DNA of 22,661 nucleotides. It comes from a virus. Position numbers and translations under genes: made by a program. The notes beneath the pieces were generated by a model. That model worked only from the letters and a program-made list of their open reading frames with translations, did not search any database and was not told the origin of the DNA. How positions within the stretch are numbered: the stretch's first letter is position 1; every line of letters begins with the position of its first letter. Where the stretch lies: the IMG/VR virus record IMGVR_UViG_3300025694_000843, positions 1-22,661 of that record, one strand, 5' to 3'. Positions 2-14,324 of the stretch are shown here, in pieces.

Positions 2-2770
2 GACAATGCAAGAAGTGGTCTCAAGCAGATGTTTGACGACATTGGATCTGGCGCGAAGAGTGCAAAAGAAGCGTGGAATGATTTTGGTCTTGGTTTGGCT
101 AAGACATTACTTGATCGAATGACGCAAAATAATATAGACAAAATAGTCAAAAACTTAACATTTGCATTTACCGGAGAAGAAGGAAAGTCTGACGCTGAAA
201 AAATAGCTAGCGAAACTTCAAACTTAGTCGGAGTAAACAATAAAATTATATCTTCGAATCTAGAATTAATATCCGCAATAAATGGCCAGACAGAAGCGTT
301 AAAAAAACAAATAGACTCAGAGACACCAGTAGATACGCCCTATAGAGACAAAATTCCAGATAGTGAAGGTATTACCTTCAAGGGTTTTGACGCTAAGAGT
401 ATGGCCGCCATAGCGCCCGTGACAAAAAAAGAGACTGATAAAACTACAAGGCGGCTACAAAAGATCGGAAAACAAACAATTAAAGAAGAAAGAGATAAAG
501 CAAAATTGGAAAAAAATGAATCTATTAACGGTATAGGTGATGATATAAGAAGGGAGCTTAATAAAGTAAACGCAAAAAACCAAGAAACTTCGAATACAGA
601 AAGGTTGGCTGGACAAGCTTCAGACAATTACATCCCTGGCGGCATGCAAATTTTTGGCAGGAATCAAATTGAGAATATTGCCGCAGGTACAAGCGGGCAA
701 GTCCAATCTGATAATTCCGTGAATTATAGCGCTGAACTTTACAATAGAAATTTTAAAGCAATGACCGGTAAAGAAGCAGAAGAAGGATATGGGAGAGCTT
801 ACGATGGAGTCAATAACCCAACCCCAGCAGGTCACGGTCCTATGGGGATGCTTAAGGACTTGATTAGTACTACAAGCGCAAGAGTAGGGGTGGGAGGGAA
901 AAATACATTAGAAGCACGCGCGACACAATTACCTGGGAATCTTAAACAACGAGATGAGATAGTATCGAACTTAAAGGAGTTAGAAGCCCTTAGAGAACTA
1001 AAAGGCGAACTAAAGGAAATAAAACATTATTCGCTAAACGCAGCTCAACCATTAAAAGAGATAGACGAAGAATTGAATGCGGCAGCTAAAGAGGCTTTAA
1101 AATTAGAAAATGTAGACCTTAACGTCGATGATGTCATAGAAAAGCTGAATGAAAAAATGAGAAAACTTTCTGATGCATTACGACAAACCTCAAGTGAACT
1201 TGGTATAAATCAACTTCCCGTTCTAAAAAGTCAAGCCGTTACAAGTAATAAATTCTCAGGCGGCAAAATACAACACTTTGCAAAAGGCGGATTTGTAGAC
1301 GGCCCAGCAGGCGTAGATAAAGTTCCCGCAATGTTAACGGCAGGAGAGTATGTCGTACCTAAAGACAAAGCAAAGCAATTCAAACAAAGCGGCGGAGAGA
1401 TACAGAATTTCGCAATAGGCGGAATGGCCAAAGAGCTAAACAACGAAAACTCTAAAAATAGAACCATCAGGGGCGCACAAGGCGTAACGCAATTACTGGT
1501 TATGAATGAGGTCTCTCGCGGGATGGCTAAATATTTAGAAAAGCCAAAAGATGACGGGCCCCCAACATTTGATAAAAATAAATTCAACAATTTAGACCTA
1601 AGATCAGACGTAAATATCAAGCGTGGAGATCCTAGATTGAGCGCAAGGTTTTTAGCTAAAGATCCAGTGATGCAGGAATATAAAGATTATCTCTTAGAGA
1701 AGGCTGCTTACGACGTGGAAAAGAAAAACCAAAAGGTCGATAAAAAAATGCAGACAATCGGCTCTGTACTTTCGTTTATGAGTAGCTTTGCAATTGGCCA
1801 AATGTCAGAGATAATAGCGCCTTATGTTCAAAAAGCAGTTGGGTGGGCAAAAAATAAGACTATAAATACTGCCATGGGCCATACAGGTTTAGGAAAACAT
1901 TCAGATGCATTTAAGCAGGCCAGAAGCGATGGATTAAACGTAAATTACAAAGACGTAAGTAATCATATTGAGTCTGGAGAATTTCTAAATATAAACGACA
2001 AGAATTACGCCTTTATGCCGCAGCCGGATGGTAGTGATGATTGGGAAAGAATGAACACGGGTTCCACCGCTAAGACTCATAGGGGTCAAGGAACTGGTAT
2101 TAACAAAAATAATGCATCAATGCTTAAAAGGGCAAGAGGTTATCAATCTGGAGGCTCGATACCAGCAATGCTTACAGCGGGAGAAGGCTTCGTTCCAGCT
2201 CCTGTTGCAAAGAGAATTGGTTATGATAATTTAAATCGCATGAACACTACTGGTGGGCTTCCAATTGTTCAAGGCAAAGGAGGAATAGATAATGTTGGGC
2301 CAGTAGGATTAACCGAGGGCGATTTTATCATAAAGAAAAGCTCAACAGACAAGCTTCTCAGAGAGAATCCCAACATGATGCGTTTCGCCCTACAGAATCC
2401 AGAGGGATTCAAAAGGGGTGAGCAGGGTTATTACGAAGGAGGAGTAGTTGGTAGCCCTTCAACAATTCCCGCTCCATCCGTACCAAAGCAAGCTCCAACA
2501 AACAGACTCAAGAGTGCGGATCCTGCTGAGATGCTTAATCAGTCTTTCAACCAAAAACAAGAAGCCGCTGTAGCGCCACAACAAAAAAGCGAAGTAACCA
2601 ACAATATAAACGTTAATGTATCCATAGATCAAACAGGAAAAGAAACGGTATCGACAGAGAATTCTAACAGCTCATACGAAGAAGAGCAGCAACTTTCATT
2701 AAAAATAAAGAGCGCCGTACTGGATGTAATCAGGCAAGAAAAGAGAATAGGTGGGGAACTTAGCTCATGA
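2..2770 (+). CDS. Tape measure protein, C-terminal part (5' end outside window)
   Basis: The frame is open from the first bases of the window, so the ATG at 29 is probably internal and 922 residues of a longer protein are visible. Tape measure proteins fill the tail tube, set tail length and are ejected with the DNA. The first visible residues (a KSAKEAW..F..GLAKTLLDRMT helix) resemble the helical stretch common near the end of the core of these proteins. A charged helical, likely coiled-coil region lies at about 953-1204. Three copies of the Gly-rich module typical of tape measure tails follow (1259-1381, 2150-2221, 2273-2386; signatures VPAMLTAGEYVVPK, IPAMLTAGEGFVP, VGLTEGDFIIKK). A moderately hydrophobic helix is at about 1748-1828. 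The C-terminus (VIRQEKRIGGELSS) matches the usual 'E+RPGG' end. It is followed by tail genes and overlaps the next gene by ATGA. Identification comes from motifs and position, without database comparison. Confidence 0.85.
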   Translation, partial: DNARSGLKQMFDDIGSGAKSAKEAWNDFGLGLAKTLLDRMTQNNIDKIVKNLTFAFTGEEGKSDAEKIASETSNLVGVNNKIISSNLELISAINGQTEALKKQIDSETPVDTPYRDKIPDSEGITFKGFDAKSMAAIAPVTKKETDKTTRRLQKIGKQTIKEERDKAKLEKNESINGIGDDIRRELNKVNAKNQETSNTERLAGQASDNYIPGGMQIFGRNQIENIAAGTSGQVQSDNSVNYSAELYNRNFKAMTGKEAEEGYGRAYDGVNNPTPAGHGPMGMLKDLISTTSARVGVGGKNTLEARATQLPGNLKQRDEIVSNLKELEALRELKGELKEIKHYSLNAAQPLKEIDEELNAAAKEALKLENVDLNVDDVIEKLNEKMRKLSDALRQTSSELGINQLPVLKSQAVTSNKFSGGKIQHFAKGGFVDGPAGVDKVPAMLTAGEYVVPKDKAKQFKQSGGEIQNFAIGGMAKELNNENSKNRTIRGAQGVTQLLVMNEVSRGMAKYLEKPKDDGPPTFDKNKFNNLDLRSDVNIKRGDPRLSARFLAKDPVMQEYKDYLLEKAAYDVEKKNQKVDKKMQTIGSVLSFMSSFAIGQMSEIIAPYVQKAVGWAKNKTINTAMGHTGLGKHSDAFKQARSDGLNVNYKDVSNHIESGEFLNINDKNYAFMPQPDGSDDWERMNTGSTAKTHRGQGTGINKNNASMLKRARGYQSGGSIPAMLTAGEGFVPAPVAKRIGYDNLNRMNTTGGLPIVQGKGGIDNVGPVGLTEGDFIIKKSSTDKLLRENPNMMRFALQNPEGFKRGEQGYYEGGVVGSPSTIPAPSVPKQAPTNRLKSADPAEMLNQSFNQKQEAAVAPQQKSEVTNNINVNVSIDQTGKETVSTENSNSSYEEEQQLSLKIKSAVLDVIRQEKRIGGELSS
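1259..2386 (+). repeat. Three diverged copies of the tape-measure 'GG..PAMLTAGE(Y)VV' module
   Basis: This is a protein-level repeat inside the tape measure gene. Copy 1 (1259-1381) has GGFVDGPAGVDKVPAMLTAGEYVVPK split over two segments; copy 2 (2150-2221) has GGSIPAMLTAGEGFVPAPVA; copy 3 (2273-2386) has GGIDNVGPVGLTEGDFIIKK. The shared core is Gly-Gly, a short acidic or proline turn, then hydrophobic-L-[TS]-x-GE-hydrophobic-hydrophobic-[PK]. The same core is widespread in phage tape measure C-termini. The copies are strongly diverged, so the repeat is visible at protein level and not as a DNA repeat. Confidence 0.7.
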
Positions 2771-3792
2771 GGCAAGCTGTTTTAGGTTATGAACAAAAAT
2801 TCTTTATAAACGGAACTCAAATATCAGGAGTTCAAAACGTTGCGGGCTCTTATGCGATAGATGAAAGACCAATAAATGTTCTTGGTTGGGGTCATGTAAA
2901 TAAAAATTTCTATAATGATAGAGAAAGATTTGCTCAGCCTGATGGGTCTTTTATATTGGACGAGAATGGATTTAATATATTAGGAGAAGAAAGTTTAGAT
3001 TGTGCGGTAGATGGAGACATAAGCGGATTTCCAGAGAGCATGGCTGTTTTGAACGCCCCATTGGAGGGTTCTTTTTCGATTAATTCTGTATTGGTCAGTG
3101 AAGATTTCTTTTTACAATTCACGGGAGACGTGCCATTTACTGGAAGTATTCATCATGGAAAGAAATACTTTGGTTTTGATAAGGGGTACATAACTAGCCA
3201 CTCTGTTTCTTGTGGCGTTGGAGAACTTCCAACGACATCCACATCAATAAGAGTTTTCGGAGACATAGGTGGATCTCCTGAGTTTATGGAGCAAGAAGAT
3301 GAGGGTGGACTATTTCTTCAGGAAGATGGATTTGCAATAGGCTCAGAAGATTCTAATGCCGGAATATACAACGCATCAGGTGATAATCCCTTTCCTGAGA
3401 TAAGGCTGCCAAATCAAGGGTCCATTATTGTAGAGTGCGCAGGGGCGACGACAGATAGGGTTACATCCTTTAACTACAGTATAGACATACCTATATCCCC
3501 AATTTACACAGTAGGCTCTTCTGTGCCGGCGCAGGTAGATGTTGCATGGCCAGTAACCACGAACACTTCTTTCAGTTTAGATATAGACAAATACGAATAT
3601 CAAAGCTTGAGGAAATATTTAAAGTCTCCCACAGTTCACGACATTGCGATAAAAATCAACGATTGCTTTGGTGTTCCGATTCAGCATTATGTAGTTAAAA
3701 GTGCGAGATTAATAGGAGAGGACATGGCCGCTTCGACAGACGGGAAAATGACTGTAAATTTAACATATAAATCTTACTATAATAAGAGATGA
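2767..3792 (+). CDS. Tail protein with tube-like/distal-tail-like domains (341 aa)
   Basis: The ATG overlaps the tape measure stop as ATGA, with a purine-rich AGGTGG about 12 bases upstream. The protein is beta-rich, with no signal peptide or membrane segment. It appears to hold two halves, about residues 15-167 and 216-340. The C-terminal half (TSFNYSIDIPI..., LDIDKYEYQS, IAIKINDC..., ending in MTVNLTYKSYY) aligns by eye with the end of the next gene product and has the strand pattern of tail-tube-like proteins. Two copies of a short acidic Gly motif (residues 55-77, SFILDENGFNILGEES; residues 173-196, LFLQEDGFAIGSEDS) interrupt it. Proteins just after the tape measure are usually distal tail or tip ring components, which is my best guess. 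A firm family assignment is not possible from sequence alone. Confidence 0.55.
   Translation: MRQAVLGYEQKFFINGTQISGVQNVAGSYAIDERPINVLGWGHVNKNFYNDRERFAQPDGSFILDENGFNILGEESLDCAVDGDISGFPESMAVLNAPLEGSFSINSVLVSEDFFLQFTGDVPFTGSIHHGKKYFGFDKGYITSHSVSCGVGELPTTSTSIRVFGDIGGSPEFMEQEDEGGLFLQEDGFAIGSEDSNAGIYNASGDNPFPEIRLPNQGSIIVECAGATTDRVTSFNYSIDIPISPIYTVGSSVPAQVDVAWPVTTNTSFSLDIDKYEYQSLRKYLKSPTVHDIAIKINDCFGVPIQHYVVKSARLIGEDMAASTDGKMTVNLTYKSYYNKR
2929..3354 (+). repeat. Two copies of a short acidic 'L..E(D/N)GF.I..E(E/D)S' motif
   Basis: Copy 1 is at 2929-2997 (residues 55-77, core FILDENGFNILGEES) and copy 2 at 3283-3354 (residues 173-196, core LFLQEDGFAIGSEDS). Both are flanked by acidic residues and sit between beta-rich segments. 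They look like small exposed insertions or linkers duplicated within one protein. A looser form (DFLIDELGRKYILTEGAKRI) occurs near the N-terminus of the product encoded from 10030. No function is known to me. Confidence 0.5.
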
Positions 3793-4988
3793 GTAAGCCT
3801 TTTTATAGATACGAAGATGTTCCATTGTTGATGGCTTCTGAGGGCCAAGAGCCAGTTATGGTTTTTGCTAATAGAGCTGGTTTATCTGCTAGCCAACCGA
3901 TACAAGCAAAGAAATTTATAGAGGATTATCATATATCATTCGCATTGCAAACTGGAGATATACATTTTACTGGAGCTCATGAATCGGGTTTCTTGATGGG
4001 TCCGCGCAACGGCCCAGGAGTAAGACTTCCAGAATCAGTTGAAAATATATTAAGCGGAACTAAAATTGCCTATCCTGGCGGACAAGGACTTTACTTAACT
4101 GAAGATTTATCTGCTGGTGATTATTATATAAATGTAAGATCTACAGGTGAGACTATATTGAGGTACGAGGAAGACATAGAGCATGGAGAAGTTGAGGTCT
4201 TAAGGAATTACGCAGCAGGAGGAATAGTAAGAGGTTCTTTGGATGTGACCTATTACATGAACACTGGAAATCTTCATACTTTTGCAGACTTAACGGGCTT
4301 GCTTGATCCTAATATTTACCCGCAAGTAAACGAAACAAAAATAACAGGATGCTTTGGTGACTACATTTTTGAAGACGCGTATTTAAGAGAGCTTTCTTTT
4401 TCGGCTCAACCCTTTCAGGTTGTAGAATCAAACTTGAGTTTAGATATATATGGAAGAATGTTGTATCAGTCTGGATTGGCCGACTCTATAATTGAAAATT
4501 ACGGATGTCTAAAAGAACAACAAATAAGCGTACCTCACGCAATCAATACAAAAATACTTGGAGCCTCTGATGTAGGAATAGAATATCCTTTAGATTTTTC
4601 ATACAGCATAACGTCCACAAGAAATCCAGAAGTACCAATACCTCTAAGCGGAAAAATGAGCGAAGAAGGAGAGCTCCCAATAAGGGTAACCAAGGAAGCT
4701 ATAGACATTAGCATAAGAATAAGAGGGGAAAAGTTAGATCCATTTTTAAAAATATCAGGGCAAAGAGCTAATGTTACGGTTCAGTTGTCAGACATAGGTT
4801 TTAGTAAAGAATTCACAGACAACAATCAAGGTCTACTCAAAGAGTTTAGATTAGCGGGAAGCTTGGTTCATCCAGATTTGCCGTCTCAAGAGTTAAAGGA
4901 TTATGGAGTTGTTGAAGAGGATAATTTAAGCGTGTCAGAGGGAGGGTTCCTCCAAGGTTCCGCAACAATAAAACAATCTTATAGATAA
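3789..4988 (+). CDS. Tail protein, apparent paralogue of the preceding gene product (399 aa)
   Basis: The start overlaps the previous stop as ATGA. The protein is beta-rich and soluble, with no catalytic motif. Its C-terminal half (about residues 250-399) parallels that of the upstream product: FSYSITSTRNPEVPI against FNYSIDIPISPIYTV, then IDISIRIRGEKL against FSLDIDKYEYQS, then a closing strand GSATIKQSYR against TVNLTYKSYY. The N-terminal half has a further beta region (GIVRGSLDVTYY..., YLRELSFSAQPFQV..., LSLDIYGRML) that may be a second copy of the fold. Two adjacent, related, probably two-domain proteins directly after the tape measure suggest stacked rings at the tube-to-tip junction. 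That role is inferred from position and strand pattern. Translation of the following giant gene is coupled through TAATG. Confidence 0.5.
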   Translation: MSKPFYRYEDVPLLMASEGQEPVMVFANRAGLSASQPIQAKKFIEDYHISFALQTGDIHFTGAHESGFLMGPRNGPGVRLPESVENILSGTKIAYPGGQGLYLTEDLSAGDYYINVRSTGETILRYEEDIEHGEVEVLRNYAAGGIVRGSLDVTYYMNTGNLHTFADLTGLLDPNIYPQVNETKITGCFGDYIFEDAYLRELSFSAQPFQVVESNLSLDIYGRMLYQSGLADSIIENYGCLKEQQISVPHAINTKILGASDVGIEYPLDFSYSITSTRNPEVPIPLSGKMSEEGELPIRVTKEAIDISIRIRGEKLDPFLKISGQRANVTVQLSDIGFSKEFTDNNQGLLKEFRLAGSLVHPDLPSQELKDYGVVEEDNLSVSEGGFLQGSATIKQSYR

Positions 4989-7900
4989 TGGATATATCGA
5001 ATTCAGGGTTGGATGTTAATTGCGTACAATGGTGGCAGCAGAGCGGCGACGCAAATCTTGTGTTATTGGATGAGCCAACTGGATCTAGCGAGCAACTTTT
5101 TGAGTACCCGGAGTCTGGCTCCTATAGACCTGTAGAAGATGCTTATTTGTCGGGTAAAGGTATACAGTATTTTGCACAAACGGGTGAGGATGTAACTCTA
5201 GCCAAGTATGTTTATGTAGATTACAATCCTAATTATTATTATACAGAAAATGATATTTTATCAATAGATGATTTAGTTTTTTCTCAAGATAGAAATTTTA
5301 ATATATCGACTAGTAAAGAATTAAACATTAGTGAATTTTTTAAACTTAATCCTAATTTAGGTTATTCTATTAATGTATATGTTAAAAAGGATAATGAGTC
5401 TACTAGTTTAATAGATAATTATAAAACATATATAACAGAGAACCAAGATAGATCTGTTAATATTGGAGATTCTATTGGTGTTGGTGTTGGTATAAAGTTT
5501 TATGATAAAAGTGATGTTGAGCTTTATGCGCCGAATCTAAGGGACACCCATAGGTTAATGGCGGCTAGTGAATTAAACCATAATGAATACTATAATGTAC
5601 AATTAGATATAGCCAACACTTCAATACCTGATGAAGCTGTTTCTGCGCAGTTAGTTTTATTTGTTTATGGAATGAGTGCTGGTTCATTTATTTTCAAAAA
5701 ACCATCAGTAAGAAATTTAAGTAAGTTCTTTTATTGCATAAAGGATCACAAGTCAACTTCATACAATAGCCCGAACAGCAAGGATGGACTAGAGTATTGG
5801 ACTCAAGATTTTGTCTGGAGACCTTCCTATGGAGCCAAGTCTGACTTTGTGGCAATAAATGAAGAATTAAAAATGGGAGAAGGTAAAGATTATGTTACCA
5901 ATATGGCAATAAACGCACTGCCGATGGAATTAACATTAAACTTTAGAAACCGAACAGACAAGGAAGCTAGAGCTATTGTTCACTTTTTGCAGGAAAAATC
6001 ATTTGCATACGAGTCAATTTTTAGCCTCGATTATAAGGGCGACAGATTATTGTCAAGCGAAATATCGGCGTTTAACTTTGAGTTTTCGTACCCGTACAGG
6101 AATGACTTAAAATATACTTGCACTCAGTTTAATCATACTATTTCTTATAGAAATAATAATAATGTAAATGCTAAGTTTGTATGCAATACAGAAAGCTCTC
6201 TGTCAAGTGTGGAGAGTCATGCTGGCTACAATAAAAGAATTGATGCGCTGATACCTATATTTATAGACGAAACCACTCACTTCAAAAAGGGCGAGCAAAT
6301 CAAATTAAACACCTTCACCTTGGAAGAAGGAGATGGAGTTATAACAATCGATACCAAAAAAATAAAAACAATCAAAAGGTATCCAGAAGATCCCTTGACT
6401 CCAATAACTGGGGGGATAATAACTTTTACCGATGATGTAGATATAGAAGAAGAAGATTGCGTTTACATAACAATTGCAGATCCAAAAAACTCTATTTTTA
6501 ATGTTGGAAAAACAAAGATAAAGAAAAAAATATCAAAAAACCAATACGCTTTTTGGCCAATACTTGAAGAAGGAGATGAGTCAGACGTTGCGAACTTGAG
6601 GGCAACATCTTCTGCTGGAGAGAACACTTCTGTACAATGGTTTGACGAAGTTGGAGAAAGTGAATTAGAACCTAGGCAGGAAGAGCTACTCACAACTGAC
6701 TTGGCAGATCAATTATGGAAGCCAACCGATGTAGATAGAATAACTCCAAGAAATGAATTATTCGAATCAGAGGATGGAGCTCAATACTTTGAAGAGACTA
6801 CAGAAGAGTTTATAACAATAAGGGGTGAAGATTTTATAATAGGTGGCAACATCATGATGAAGAAGATGCAAGTCTGCCCAGAGGACTGTATGTTCAGTAA
6901 GGTTCTTTTACCAGAGCATGTTTCGAATATACCGTCAGAGGTAATAGATCCAGCAACTGGGGCGGCCAGAAAAAGGCAGGTTTATCTTAAAAACTACAGA
7001 AGGATGCAGATAGACTCAGACATAGATGCAGAAAGCCTGTACGTAATCTTTACGCCTTTAGAGAATTTTACACTAGAAGCGAAGGATGATTTCTGGTTGC
7101 TTGTGTCTGCGGTCCAAGGCAGAAGTAGTATTTACTTAAAGGATCCGAATGAAATACCTAAATATCCATGGTTAGAGGTTAGGAACTTTGACCACAAGCC
7201 AAGTTTGGCATTTAGTTTAGAACAAACGCCTGATAATATTCAATCAAGTTTTCTAAAATACTATAACAAGAAATTCAAGAGGGGTATTAATGGAAACTTA
7301 TCAACTTTTAATTTGACATTTGAACAAAGAAGCGACGAAGAAGCATCTGAAATATTGCAGTTTCTCGAGAGTCATCTTGGTTATAAGAAGTTTAGGTTTC
7401 AAATGCCGCGCCCATATCTAAAAGATGGAAGTTACATCACTTCGCCAAGCAGACCTTATATTTCGAGCTTCTATTGTCCTAGTTGGGGGCACGATATAAT
7501 ATACAAAAATAATCACACAATATCTGCGACATTTATAGAGTCCACAACTTCAATAGAAGAGGATCTAAGGAATGTTTTTGGAATAGGAAGAGATGAAGAT
7601 AAACCGTGTTATGGAGCAGAAATATACGACCCAATAACGACCCATGAGCTTTGCACTTTTTCTTCTCAATTGATGGCTGCAAAGGGTGCCGGTTTTGACC
7701 TTAATCAAGACTCAAAAACTGCAAAATCTAAAGCTGTTGATTTAGTCTTTATAGTTGACACGACGGGGAGTATGACAGTTGCCTCTATGGAGACTAATGG
7801 GGTAACTAAAACAAAGTACCAAGTAGCCATAGATATAGTTTTGAAAATGATAACAGCTCATGATAGTTATGTCGTGCCTGGGACTGAATCATACAATGAA

Positions 7901-10033
7901 TTCGACGCGCCACCATTAAGCTTTGGGTCTAGGAGTGGAGATGATACGGCCCCACCGTGGCCAGCAGATAATCAGGTTTTGGATAGTTTAATTTCTAAAT
8001 TATATGACCCGCTAAAAGAGCTGCAGGAAGAGCTGGAAAATAATGATTATAATTTAGAGAACCTAGATAGATTTAAAATAAAAATAGACCAAAAAAGAGT
8101 AAATCTTGGTTTTATACTGATGGCAGATAGTAGGCAGGTGATACAAGACGTATCGGATTATCCTAACTCATTCGATAAAGTGCAGTCTTATAAGAGCGTA
8201 AACATAAAAAACCCTAATAACACACTATCGGAAGATTCGCCTAGAGCAGTTAGTCAGGCCTTGGCTCAGTTTTATAATAGCCCACGAGCTGAGCATGTGA
8301 CCGATAGGATTATTATTATGTTGAGCGATGGTATTTTTACGACTCCCGACGTAACTGGATTGTCGCCACCCTATAACCAGGTTTATAGCCAATACACTCT
8401 TGACATGTGCGCTCAACTAAGAAAAGGCGGGGATTTGGCGGTTAGAAGACCATCTGACGAGACGCTTAAGAAGTATGGGTATCAATCTCAAAATCCATAT
8501 GCCAAAATGGAACAATATAAATTTAAAGAAAGAGATGGCGGCAAGTCAGCTTATAATAATCCTGACCTGGGTAAAGATAATCCCGCATGGTATGAAGAGG
8601 AAATGCCAACGGTGTTTATGTTTGCTAGGGTGGGCTTTCCAGGTTTCCTAGCGGTTCGAGCCCCAAACTATGTTTATGACTATGATAAGCCTGCGCCATA
8701 CCTAGAGCCGCCAGGTAAGACTCCTCAATTCTTTTTTCCAATAACGCAGGGCGGAGACCCTAATGGCGAGGTTACCAGAATGATGGACTTGATAAAAGTT
8801 GTAGAAATGCTTACCAATGATAATGGTTATCAGAACGTACTATCGATAGTTCTATATAATTGTGGCCCTCACGATGTAAAACTAAAAAACACATTAATTA
8901 ATATCGAAGGCCAAAACACCGCATTAAAATACACTACTGAAATATTAAAAGAAGGTATACCCAAAGGAGGAAACGTTAGGGATTTAACTTTCACGCAGCC
9001 AGATCAGGGATTAGGGTCAATAGTAAAAGGTTACGGGGGCCAATACTTTGGCGACTTGGACAATCAAGATTTATTTTCAGACGACCCTAAGGCTTCAAAT
9101 ATATTGTGGACTTCATTTAATACTCAATACGAAGTGTCAAGACAAGGCGTAATAGAAGACATAAATGGAGGGTGGGCCGCAAACTCAAATTTAACAAACG
9201 GAGTTAAGAATACAGGTGTTGCATTTAAAGGTATGCCGATAAGAGTATTTAAGGCAGATTCAGGCCTACAGATAACAGACTACAACATAGGAAACGTTAC
9301 CCCTAGTAATGGGTACAGAGGGGATTATTCCCATTTACCAGCAATAAAGCCTGGTGAAAAACTTGATTTATTTTTTGGAGTAAAGACTAATAAGTTGAGC
9401 GACTTTTCTGAAAAAGTTCAACTCTTTATCAATTCAGACGACGAAACAATGAAGGAGATGGATTGTTATGCTAATTATAATTTTGAAATAATCATTCCAT
9501 CAAGCAAGGAGTCTTTAGGTGATTCTGACACTAAGGATAATAGTGACCCAACTGATTGCCAGAGTGTATGGATGAATTCAAATCTGATTATAGATCATCC
9601 AGAATATGGAAAAGTTTCTTTTGATAGCAGCCCTAAGTTGCCTATCGCCCCAACATACAACCCTTGGGCTTTAAGGAATTTCGCAGACAAGCCGCCGACA
9701 TCAGGGGGTAATTCTTTCAAGATGTGCAACATAGCTTCAGCTCAAACATATACATTTTCTCAACCAATAAGAAATCCTCTTTTGGCTGTTTATAGTTTGG
9801 GGAACCCTAATTTAAGCGTGACCATAAAAACAAGTACCAAAGTTATCGATTATTCGGGAGGAGCAAAATCAGCTGACCATTCTACTATAGTTGTTGATAC
9901 AGACTTTAGCTTCAAAGGGCCAGAGGCTTTTGGAGTCCTGCAGTTCCCGGGGGAGCATACAAGTATAACTTTAACGCCAAACACCGCTGAGTGTTACTAT
10001 AGTCTCGTATGGGGGTTGCAATATTGCCCATGA
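4988..10033 (+). CDS. Giant tail-tip protein: two gpM-like domains, vWA, Ig-like and carbohydrate-binding-like modules (1681 aa)
   Basis: The start is fixed by the TAATG overlap with the previous stop. Domains by eye: motif copy A (residues 11-75); a jelly-roll, CBM-like insertion (about 73-252); lambda gpM-like domain 1 (about 303-405; MELTLNFRNRTDKEA..IVHFLQE); motif copy B (547-613); gpM-like domain 2 (about 733-855; LTFEQRSDEEA..ILQFLESH, FYCPSWGHD, TISATFIE); and a vWA domain starting near 915 with MIDAS residues D924-x-T926-x-S928 (VFIVDTTGSM), a possible Thr near 1079 and the SDG strand (IIIMLSDG, D1114). A late GYGGQYFGDL resembles the last vWA strand and could end the domain near 1360, implying a long insertion. 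An ASPM/SPD-2/Hydin-type Ig-like domain (about 1400-1505) and a beta-rich C-terminus (1520-1681) follow. In lambda, gpM is about 109 residues and sits at the tape measure end of the tip. The vWA domain probably binds a divalent metal and mediates adhesion; that is inferred. Confidence 0.72.
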   Translation: MDISNSGLDVNCVQWWQQSGDANLVLLDEPTGSSEQLFEYPESGSYRPVEDAYLSGKGIQYFAQTGEDVTLAKYVYVDYNPNYYYTENDILSIDDLVFSQDRNFNISTSKELNISEFFKLNPNLGYSINVYVKKDNESTSLIDNYKTYITENQDRSVNIGDSIGVGVGIKFYDKSDVELYAPNLRDTHRLMAASELNHNEYYNVQLDIANTSIPDEAVSAQLVLFVYGMSAGSFIFKKPSVRNLSKFFYCIKDHKSTSYNSPNSKDGLEYWTQDFVWRPSYGAKSDFVAINEELKMGEGKDYVTNMAINALPMELTLNFRNRTDKEARAIVHFLQEKSFAYESIFSLDYKGDRLLSSEISAFNFEFSYPYRNDLKYTCTQFNHTISYRNNNNVNAKFVCNTESSLSSVESHAGYNKRIDALIPIFIDETTHFKKGEQIKLNTFTLEEGDGVITIDTKKIKTIKRYPEDPLTPITGGIITFTDDVDIEEEDCVYITIADPKNSIFNVGKTKIKKKISKNQYAFWPILEEGDESDVANLRATSSAGENTSVQWFDEVGESELEPRQEELLTTDLADQLWKPTDVDRITPRNELFESEDGAQYFEETTEEFITIRGEDFIIGGNIMMKKMQVCPEDCMFSKVLLPEHVSNIPSEVIDPATGAARKRQVYLKNYRRMQIDSDIDAESLYVIFTPLENFTLEAKDDFWLLVSAVQGRSSIYLKDPNEIPKYPWLEVRNFDHKPSLAFSLEQTPDNIQSSFLKYYNKKFKRGINGNLSTFNLTFEQRSDEEASEILQFLESHLGYKKFRFQMPRPYLKDGSYITSPSRPYISSFYCPSWGHDIIYKNNHTISATFIESTTSIEEDLRNVFGIGRDEDKPCYGAEIYDPITTHELCTFSSQLMAAKGAGFDLNQDSKTAKSKAVDLVFIVDTTGSMTVASMETNGVTKTKYQVAIDIVLKMITAHDSYVVPGTESYNEFDAPPLSFGSRSGDDTAPPWPADNQVLDSLISKLYDPLKELQEELENNDYNLENLDRFKIKIDQKRVNLGFILMADSRQVIQDVSDYPNSFDKVQSYKSVNIKNPNNTLSEDSPRAVSQALAQFYNSPRAEHVTDRIIIMLSDGIFTTPDVTGLSPPYNQVYSQYTLDMCAQLRKGGDLAVRRPSDETLKKYGYQSQNPYAKMEQYKFKERDGGKSAYNNPDLGKDNPAWYEEEMPTVFMFARVGFPGFLAVRAPNYVYDYDKPAPYLEPPGKTPQFFFPITQGGDPNGEVTRMMDLIKVVEMLTNDNGYQNVLSIVLYNCGPHDVKLKNTLINIEGQNTALKYTTEILKEGIPKGGNVRDLTFTQPDQGLGSIVKGYGGQYFGDLDNQDLFSDDPKASNILWTSFNTQYEVSRQGVIEDINGGWAANSNLTNGVKNTGVAFKGMPIRVFKADSGLQITDYNIGNVTPSNGYRGDYSHLPAIKPGEKLDLFFGVKTNKLSDFSEKVQLFINSDDETMKEMDCYANYNFEIIIPSSKESLGDSDTKDNSDPTDCQSVWMNSNLIIDHPEYGKVSFDSSPKLPIAPTYNPWALRNFADKPPTSGGNSFKMCNIASAQTYTFSQPIRNPLLAVYSLGNPNLSVTIKTSTKVIDYSGGAKSADHSTIVVDTDFSFKGPEAFGVLQFPGEHTSITLTPNTAECYYSLVWGLQYCP

Positions 10034-10758
10034 GTTTTATAACTGAAGAGTCTGGAGTATGCCTTTCGGAGACCGGAAATTCGGTGATTGCTGGGTGCGA
10101 CTTTTTAATAGATGAGTTGGGTAGAAAGTATATACTGACAGAAGGAGCAAAAAGAATAATCCCAGAAGGGGATTGTTTCCCAATTACTGACTTTGACTGT
10201 AGCAAGCTTGATAGAATTACTGTGGATAGCGGAAAATTTGTAACCATAATTAATACCTGTAGTCTCCCTTTAACTATAACGGGATTTAAAAACGAAGACC
10301 CGTTGAGATTTTCTATATTTAAGTACCCGGAATATTCAGGCTACGCAGAATATAATACTGGTAACACTCAAGAACTTCCTTTTACTGTCGAACCATTCCA
10401 AAGAGTAAATATAAATACCTTTTTTCATCCTTTATATTCCGAGCTCGAAAGTGGAAACGCAGGAACTTATGAGAATAGAACTGGAGATAAGTTTGAGTCT
10501 AACGTTTCAATACTTCCGGGTTTTGAGGTATTGAACTGTGTGGAGGACCCAAATACTTCTATTTTATGGTGGGAGGAAAATGAGTATTGTGATTTAGTTT
10601 TATTAAATGATGCGGAGAAATCTTTTAATCCTGCAGCTCAGTGGTTTCAGGAGTCTGGTGATGATAACTATCAAGTCAGGGAGTCATTATTTGAATCATA
10701 CACTGAAGATGCTCAGTATTTTGAAGAGAAAGGTGAAGAAGATGTGACGGTAAAGTAC
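5018..10758 (+). repeat. 'QWF..xG...ELFES..AQYFEE.GEEDVTV' motif, three copies over two genes
   Basis: Copy A is at 5018-5212 (VQWWQQSGDANLVLLDE ... IQYFAQTGEDVTL). Copy B is at 6626-6826 (VQWFDEVGE ... ELFESEDGAQYFEETTEE). Copy C, in the next gene, is at 10555-10758 (AQWFQESGDDN ... SLFESYTEDAQYFEEKGEED). The shared pattern is Q-W-[WF], acidic/Gly, a gap, then [IA]-Q-Y-F-x-[EQ]-[TK]-[GT]-E-[ED]-[DF]-[VI]-T. Protein similarity is clear; DNA identity is only patchy, so the copies are old. In the giant protein each copy precedes a gpM-like domain. Confidence 0.7.
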
Positions 10759-11415
10759 AACTCAAAAGCTATATCTTCTTATTGTTCGCCAAAGTTTAAA
10801 TTAGAAGGAGAGTTTATCTGCGAGCCGGTTGATAGAGACTTCTTGAATAATGACGAAAACTTTATAGAGCCCGACCTTTCAGTATTGAAAAAAATACAGA
10901 ATGACTATTTTTTAAGTAAGAAGAAAACGATAGAGATTAACACTACTGATGTAGTGACAGTTCAGAATATTTACCAAGGATTAAAGGACTCTTCTTTAGC
11001 TTACGCGGCAATGTTGAATAATATGCAACCTAATTGGTATGAAGCTTATGGGAACCTAGGAATATCTGGAGCTCTAGGCGTTTTTCATTCCTTAGTGCAG
11101 GGGGTTATAGATGCAGGCCAGGATAATGACATAAACAATTTACTGCAATCCTCGTTACCTGCAACACAAGTGAGTTATGGAGACAAGAAGATTCAAGTTT
11201 CTTACGCAAGTAATAACACCTCTGAAGTGCAACTTGATGGGTATAATTGGACAGGAATGATTATCAAAAACGAACCAGTTGAAAACGCTGGAGACGTAAG
11301 TAATCAAGCTGTATTTTTTAACGCAGAAATTATTCCAGGACAAGCAAAAGATGTAAGAATGTTTATTGTCGATAGTGGAGATTTTAATAACTACCCAATG
11401 AAAGAGACGATATGA
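10030..11415 (+). CDS. Tail-associated protein with Ig-like domain and shared QYFEE motif (461 aa)
   Basis: An in-frame ATG exists at 10009, but the ATG at 10030 overlaps the upstream stop as ATGA, matching its neighbours, so I choose it (461 instead of 468 residues). The N-terminus has a loose acidic motif (FLIDELGRKYILTEG). Next comes a probable Ig-like domain of the ASPM/SPD-2/Hydin type (10009+3x65 onward, about 10200-10530; KFVTIINTCSLPLTITGF, ELPFTVEPFQRVNI), then motif copy C (10555-10758). The C-terminal third is helical in part (LSVLKKIQNDYFLSKK, SSLAYAAMLNNM, GVFHSLVQGVIDAG) and then beta-rich (YNWTGMIIKNEP). No enzyme motif is visible. Shared motif and Ig-like domain type suggest it works with the giant protein upstream. 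Function is unknown; it is called structural on position only. Confidence 0.55.
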   Translation: MSFITEESGVCLSETGNSVIAGCDFLIDELGRKYILTEGAKRIIPEGDCFPITDFDCSKLDRITVDSGKFVTIINTCSLPLTITGFKNEDPLRFSIFKYPEYSGYAEYNTGNTQELPFTVEPFQRVNINTFFHPLYSELESGNAGTYENRTGDKFESNVSILPGFEVLNCVEDPNTSILWWEENEYCDLVLLNDAEKSFNPAAQWFQESGDDNYQVRESLFESYTEDAQYFEEKGEEDVTVKYNSKAISSYCSPKFKLEGEFICEPVDRDFLNNDENFIEPDLSVLKKIQNDYFLSKKKTIEINTTDVVTVQNIYQGLKDSSLAYAAMLNNMQPNWYEAYGNLGISGALGVFHSLVQGVIDAGQDNDINNLLQSSLPATQVSYGDKKIQVSYASNNTSEVQLDGYNWTGMIIKNEPVENAGDVSNQAVFFNAEIIPGQAKDVRMFIVDSGDFNNYPMKETI

Positions 11416-13610: not shown

Positions 13611-14324
13611 ATGTTTGAGAGAGAAGTCATAGTTCATGCAGAGAGCAATCCAGAAGAAGAAGTGTGTGGATTTATTTTGCTTCATAAAGATTTAACTGTA
13701 TCAGTTGAGCCCGCAATAAATGAACATTCGGCGCCAAGAGATTGCTTTACAATATCGCCAAAAAGCTTCATAAAACATTCTATAGACAAAACAATAGTAG
13801 GAATATACCACTCTCATCCAAGGAGCAACGAGAGGCCTTCTCCGCCAGATATAGCTATGTCTGAGGAAATGGGTATTCCTTATTTAATCTACAGCGTAAT
13901 AACCAAGAAGTTTTTTCTTTATTACCCCGAAAGCTATGAGCCAGAAAAGCTTACTGGAAAACCTTACATCAAGGGCTTCTTTGAATGCACCTGTATGTTC
14001 AAAGACTATTTCAAAAAAGAACTAAACATAAACATATCTAAATGGAACGAAAACTATTGGCTTCCACAAGAAGATAAAGACGCAAATAAACTATTAATAA
14101 ATATATTAAATAATAATTTAAAAAAAATAGAAGATAAAAAATTACAAAAACATGATGTAATATTATTTCAAGTAAAGAAAAATTTTAGATATCATGTTGG
14201 TATATATTGTGGGGATGATTACTTCTTGCATCAGGCCACTGGTATTTTATCCAGGAGAGAGTTATTGGACGAACGCTGGCAAGCAAAAATAAAAGAAGTG
14301 TACAGACATCCATCGTTAGTGTAA
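13611..14324 (+). CDS. Tail tip peptidase, lambda gpK-like: JAMM/MPN plus NlpC/P60 (237 aa)
   Basis: The ATG abuts the upstream stop (TAAATG). The N-terminal domain (about 1-115) has the full JAMM metal-binding motif: E near 16-17 ahead of CGFI, then H67-S-H69-P, seven residues, S77-x-x-D80. The C-terminal domain (about 118-237) fits NlpC/P60 cysteine peptidases: C126 in FFECTCMFKDYF as candidate nucleophile, H195 in RYHVGIYCGDD, H207 in YFLHQATGIL, and the terminal SRREL. gpK-type proteins act in tail assembly and probably peptidoglycan cleavage at entry; both active sites look intact. The residue before the nucleophile is Glu instead of the usual Asp, and a second Cys (C128) lies nearby. 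The linker (about 14090-14210) is Lys/Asn/Leu-rich and strongly AT-rich. Total length is close to lambda gpK. Confidence 0.9.
   Translation: MFEREVIVHAESNPEEEVCGFILLHKDLTVSVEPAINEHSAPRDCFTISPKSFIKHSIDKTIVGIYHSHPRSNERPSPPDIAMSEEMGIPYLIYSVITKKFFLYYPESYEPEKLTGKPYIKGFFECTCMFKDYFKKELNINISKWNENYWLPQEDKDANKLLINILNNNLKKIEDKKLQKHDVILFQVKKNFRYHVGIYCGDDYFLHQATGILSRRELLDERWQAKIKEVYRHPSLV

Follow-up and report, generated by a model that had tools for sequence, protein, structure and literature searches.

A vWA domain fused to gpM-like domains in a putative phage tail-tip protein, with exchangeable loops beside a predicted metal site

Described vWA domains and the gpM-vWA gene

The vWA or integrin-type domain is a classic adhesion fold in animals and in bacterial pili, and adhesins such as PitA, MIC2, and TRAP present it at the tip of a surface structure. 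In typical vWA adhesins, the third position of the MIDAS metal site is Thr, not Glu. In integrin β3, Glu220 lies at the same position as the Thr of the αI domains. This Glu takes part in ion binding at the MIDAS/SyMBS (PMC3792891).

The viral vWA proteins that we found in the literature are mostly partners of AAA+ proteins (PMC7911831, PMC7824862, PMC8651126). By its description, the closest precedent for the protein studied here is gp164 of the Bacillus thuringiensis phage 0305phi8-36, whose gene in the baseplate/fibre region encodes a vWA domain; in the relative BtI1, a different domain takes its place (PMC2147016). This is a fibre gene of a myophage, and it lacks a gpM fusion. VWA domains also occur in the fibres of extracellular contractile injection systems (PMC12923769). 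A vWA domain in a phage baseplate gene is already known; we did not find the gpM-gpM-vWA-Ig architecture described in the literature searched, which covered few subscription papers. As for gpM itself, the lambda protein is a single domain of 109 amino acids, and six copies, in two conformations, assemble into a ring with 3-fold symmetry (PMC10721106).

The window (the whole stretch of viral DNA that we analyzed, 22,661 nucleotides) contains a gene for a gpM-like protein of 1681 amino acids:

4988..10033, plus strand: tail-tip protein gene (two gpM-like domains, vWA, Ig-like, and variable C-terminal domain), an open reading frame of 1681 codons
5858..6232, plus strand: first gpM-like domain, about residues 291-415, similar to the second by BLASTP (E = 5e-9)
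7184..7534, plus strand: second gpM-like domain, residues 733-849, Pfam PF05939 (E = 4.5e-14)

The second gpM-like domain was the only match reported when the whole protein was compared to Pfam and PHROGs. It belongs to PHROG 14 (minor tail protein) and matches the structure of the lambda tail tip protein M (8iyk_M, E = 1.4e-4). The first was recognized by direct segment-to-segment comparison with the second. Downstream are genes of the gpL, NlpC/JAB, and gpJ types (from Pfam and PHROG), and the gpL- and gpJ-type proteins match lambda-like tail proteins at under 60% identity. The protein shares with lambda gpM both the gpM fold and sequence and a place in the tail-tip operon, ahead of the gpL-, gpK-, and gpJ-type genes. 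Unlike lambda gpM, it is a tandem, and it is fused to vWA, Ig-like, and C-terminal domains. Gene order suggests that the protein is present in the virion.

The protein with both JAB and NlpC/P60 domains (gpK type) is at 13611-14324, and the lambda tail tip has the same combination. At 2767-4988, the likely tape measure gene is separated from the gpM gene by genes for two proteins of 341 and 399 amino acids, which had no match in Pfam or PHROG and no clear relationship to each other. Lambda has no genes at this position; the viral contig L037 has the same order as the window.

Relatives of the 1681-residue protein were found on 37 other viral contigs (L004, L006, and so on) in five scans. Several of these contigs are over 100 kb, and some are nearly identical to each other. 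The layout of gpM-gpM-vWA-Ig plus a C-terminal domain is common to most of them, by sequence comparison. In four relatives (L036, L037, L039, and L041), the vWA domain is instead at the start of a separate gene, which in L037 lies directly behind the gpM-type gene, so the fusion is a trait of a lineage and the module also exists unfused. The window had no match among 50,697 phage records, whether we compared the DNA or the 1681-residue protein. Searches of phage isolates with tblastn, using three members as queries, found no relatives, and two pattern scans of prokaryote genomes gave no confirmed relative.

Fold of the vWA and Ig-like domains

The part of the protein behind the gpM-like domains divides as follows:

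7730..8842, plus strand: vWA domain, residues 915-1285, from the AlphaFold model, Foldseek, and matches to Pfam VWA in 15 of 30 members
7856..8098, plus strand: insertion between helix 1 and strand 2, residues 957-1037, with a conserved PPW, from model secondary structure and the alignment
8837..9490, plus strand: Ig-like beta domain, residues 1284-1501, from beta strands in the model, invariant residues, and weak Foldseek matches to Ig-like domains
9503..10030, plus strand: exchangeable C-terminal domain, residues 1506-1681, with 11 unrelated types among relatives

With an alignment of 30 sequences, AlphaFold gave a model of the vWA region with a pLDDT of 87.1 and a pTM of 0.88. This superseded a model from nine close relatives, which had a pLDDT of 44 and no usable fold match. 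When the better model was compared to the PDB with Foldseek, vWA proteins (PitA, MIC2, TRAP, TEM8, and factor B) took 12 of the 13 top ranks; the best E value was 6.8e-5, only the top match passed E = 0.001, and MIC2 had a probability of 1.00. The fold matches are mostly extracellular adhesion proteins, and the pilus-tip and parasite adhesins PitA, MIC2, and TRAP are the closest solved folds, although their surrounding domains are different. In a library of viral structures, there was one match below 0.001, to a giant-virus protein, along with weak matches to phage proteins named as vWA.

The window's sequence by itself matches Pfam VWA with E = 0.025 (15.2 bits, below the curated cut-off of 23.8), while 15 of the 30 family members match it, with a best E value of 5.7e-5 and with single-sequence scores that are consistent across members. 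The relative L046, which has a textbook DISGS...GGTS...TDG, matches the structure of the vWA domain of human CLCA1 (E = 0.0011). Profile searches of PDB sequences gave no significant match.

In the model, strand 1 (917-924) is followed by helix 1 (943-956), an insertion, strand 2 (1038-1045), helix 3 (1084-1097), strand 4 (1106-1113), helix 5, strand 5 (1208-1214), strand 6, and helix 7 (1258-1276). The larger insertions are at about 957-1037 and 1144-1207. With this Rossmann-like alpha/beta fold, the predicted structure indicates that the vWA domain is real.

The initial annotation had placed a vWA domain at residues 915-1360, behind two gpM-like domains, and had raised the idea of a wider family. 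Structure prediction, gene order, and the relatives bear out the fold, its position, and the family, and Pfam agrees for half of the members if not for the window alone. The proposed end does not hold: the domain ends near 1285. The motif GGQYF (residues 1350-1354, window 9035-9049), which had been read as a late vWA strand, is placed by the model past residue 1285, in a coil within a conserved insertion of the Ig-like domain; its GGQ is invariant. Nor is the stretch from the SDG motif to GGQYF a single insertion, as had been suggested. Within it lie the last elements of the vWA domain, from helix 5 (whose RRPxD is invariant) through strands 5 and 6 to helix 7, and the Ig-like domain then begins.

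The predicted metal site and exchange of the loops beside it

The positions that correspond to the MIDAS, and the variable segments around them, are:

7757..7771, plus strand: MIDAS motif 1, D924-T-T926-G-S928, from the alignment; at the end of strand 1 in the model
8231..8233, plus strand: position of MIDAS motif 2 (Thr), E1082, from ungapped alignment to GGTSF of L046
8327..8329, plus strand: MIDAS motif 3, D1114 of SDG, invariant in 30 of 30 members; directly after strand 4 in the model
8168..8407, plus strand: exchangeable cassette, residues 1061-1140, with both MIDAS-side loops, from profiles of synonymous difference and DNA identity
8330..8389, plus strand: hypervariable loop after SDG, residues 1115-1134, from variability comparisons and synonymous-difference profiles

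FIVDTTGSM (with D924, T926, and S928) and SDG (with D1114) were named at the outset as MIDAS motifs, and both are where a vWA domain should have them, at the end of strand 1 and the end of strand 4, respectively. By the model's secondary structure, the three MIDAS segments are all on the C-terminal edge of the sheet. Because D1114 is present in 30 of 30 aligned members and D924 in 28 of 30, the motif is not due to chance. Of the five metal-site residues first named, four fit their positions; the fifth position has a Glu of the integrin-β type and not a Thr near 1079. We rejected T1079 as the MIDAS Thr: it is not conserved in the alignment (the 95%-identical L004 has Pro there), and the site lacks a Thr of the αI type. 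E1082 was placed by its gap-free alignment to the GGT of L046 and the helix that follows.

At this third position, 14 of the 30 rows have Glu, and all 14 have an intact D-x-[ST]-x-S. Another 14 have Lys or Arg, and half of those have a damaged motif 1. The others are L046, with Thr, and L009, with Ser and with Lys instead of D924. When a tree is built without the MIDAS columns, the Lys/Arg rows cluster together (support 92/66), which suggests a single old split between the two states. By analogy, members with Glu could hold a metal ion as integrin β subunits do: the β I-like domain shares the vWA fold and the Asp-x-Ser/Thr-x-Ser, Glu, and Asp of the metal site. It differs from the phage domain in its insertions and has no detectable sequence homology to it beyond the fold; also, the phage vWA domain is in a tail protein, and its metal binding is a prediction. 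In the Lys/Arg class, a positively charged side chain might stand in for the metal. Since about half of the family has Lys or Arg here, metal binding cannot be family-wide. Nor is metal binding necessary for the protein to be kept, as the vWA fold persists in members whose MIDAS is lost (L009, L054, and most of the Lys/Arg class). Metal-dependent adhesion by the vWA domain of the window is a plausible proposal.

Within the Glu class, variability in the vWA domain is highest in two loops, one before helix 3 and the other after SDG. For four close pairs, the odds ratios for differences in these MIDAS-face loops versus the rest of the domain were 3-10.6, and for further pairs, the odds ratios versus other loops were 2-13 in seven of eight; we chose the loops after a first rough inspection that included some of these pairs, and the pairs are not independent. 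The eighth of the further pairs is the window and L006, which share the loops. The five Lys/Arg pairs showed no significant loop effect. Positive selection was not seen by dN/dS, as the values were below 1.

Between the window and L006, the synonymous difference is 0.11-0.14 at residues 1061-1140, 0.29 at 1021-1060, and 0.48-0.78 in the other bins within residues 701-1505. L006 and its sister L014 show the reverse (0.40-0.87 at 1061-1140 and 0.05-0.25 outside 1021-1140). Similarly, L004 and L011 have the same loop allele, even though L004 is elsewhere a near sister of the window: the synonymous difference between L004 and L011 is 0.23 and 0.03 inside the cassette and 0.67-0.89 outside 1021-1140. 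Judging by these profiles, there are two separate transfers of a cassette of about 80 codons across the MIDAS-side loops (window/L006 and L004/L011).

Larger blocks have been exchanged as well. The DNA of L009 is 99.05% identical to the window over 6.4 kb, up to position 7672. Past this point, the vWA-Ig part is 28-65% identical (amino acids, per 60 residues) and the C-terminal part 15-23% identical, and similarity returns downstream. So L009 has kept the gpM part and has a different vWA block, without D924.

The C-terminal domain belongs to no known family and has no Pfam or PHROG match. Four members lack it. In the pairs L015/L016 and L028/L030, the sequences are almost the same until the C-terminal domain, where the two members of each pair are unlike. 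The window's C-terminal domain is again close to those of L006 and L014 (synonymous difference 0.11-0.21), which indicates that this module moves independently. Another module, MYDQxxFxGNxVLxxxGP, is on a gpM-only protein in L037 (7289-7894) and behind the vWA-Ig block in L028 (11855-12808; BLASTP E = 1e-10), which indicates that gpM-only and vWA proteins exchange C-terminal domains.

Possible roles, and a repeated module

Overall, we lean towards a role as a component of the tail-tip ring with a vWA-Ig arm, an integrin-β-type metal site, recognition loops on the MIDAS side, and a specificity tuned by recombination. The protein would be a gpM-type component of the distal-tail ring of a lambda-like tail tip, with vWA-Ig as a peripheral arm and the C-terminal domain as an exchangeable end. 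We infer that three copies of the tandem would form a six-domain ring that presents three vWA arms. In the window's class, the predicted metal site is D924, T926, S928, E1082, and D1114, and the two loops beside it would form a surface for recognition, with a molecule exposed on the host cell as the most likely ligand. Recombination of any of three units (the loop cassette, the vWA block as a whole, or the C-terminal domain) could retune the specificity. Modular, recombining specificity regions are a trait of receptor-binding proteins, so these swaps are suggestive of receptor binding but are not specific to it. The repeated swapping of the MIDAS face between related phages suggests that the domain may help decide which surface is gripped, and the hypervariable loops and cassette recombination lend independent support to recognition at this face. 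A more definite version, in which the protein is an integrin-like, metal-dependent adhesin of the tail-tip ring with specificity in the loop cassette, and in which Lys/Arg replaced the metal in the sister lineage, is tentative.

It is somewhat unlikely that vWA-Ig is instead a spacer or assembly platform for a receptor-binding C-terminal domain, with a metal site that is a fold-stabilizing relic in some members. The swapping of C-terminal domains between near-identical proteins is what we would expect of receptor binders, and this view stays alive because the vWA fold outlives the MIDAS in many members. Yet four members have no C-terminal domain at all, and a spacer would not be expected to show variation and recombination focused on the MIDAS-side loops, as in the Glu class. 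A recognition arm fits better than a passive spacer, given the ring position, the adhesin-type fold, the conserved site under variable loops, and three nested modules (loop cassette, vWA block, and C-terminal domain) that have been exchanged.

The variable loops might also contact co-varying neighbors in the tail, so that cassette exchange would reflect compatibility within the tip and not host specificity. vWA domains often mediate protein-protein contacts, and the swapped block in L009 extends beyond the end of the gene towards downstream tail genes. But the transfers of about 80 codons (window/L006 and L004/L011) did not alter the vWA, gpM, and Ig sequence around them, and we consider this explanation improbable. 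Still less probable is a vWA domain that partners with AAA+/MoxR proteins and is used in assembly, even though most viral vWA proteins in the literature we found are of that type (PMC7911831, PMC7824862). Here the domain is fused to tail-ring domains within a tail-tip operon, its fold matches are mostly extracellular adhesion proteins, and no ATPase was recognized among the window's proteins that were searched; we found no support for a role as an AAA+ partner.

A vWA family in the tail-tip ring of siphophages would contrast with the viral vWA proteins in the literature we found, which are mostly ATPase partners. If the recognition arm is real, then exchangeable loops beside a metal site would provide a small, naturally occurring test system for how MIDAS specificity changes, and the analysis names a residue range to watch in predicting the hosts of such uncultured phages.

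The protein also contains two copies of a short module (with patterns such as WWQxSG...EQxFE...QYFxExG...VT) that occurs once more in P0005:

about 5024-5227: first copy, P0001 residues 13-80
6632-6817: second copy, P0001 residues 549-610
about 10561-10773: copy in P0005

By blastp, residues 13-104 of P0001 match the relatives' homolog of P0005 (36% identity), and L014 lacks the second copy. From this distribution, the module looks like a small mobile insert in tail proteins.
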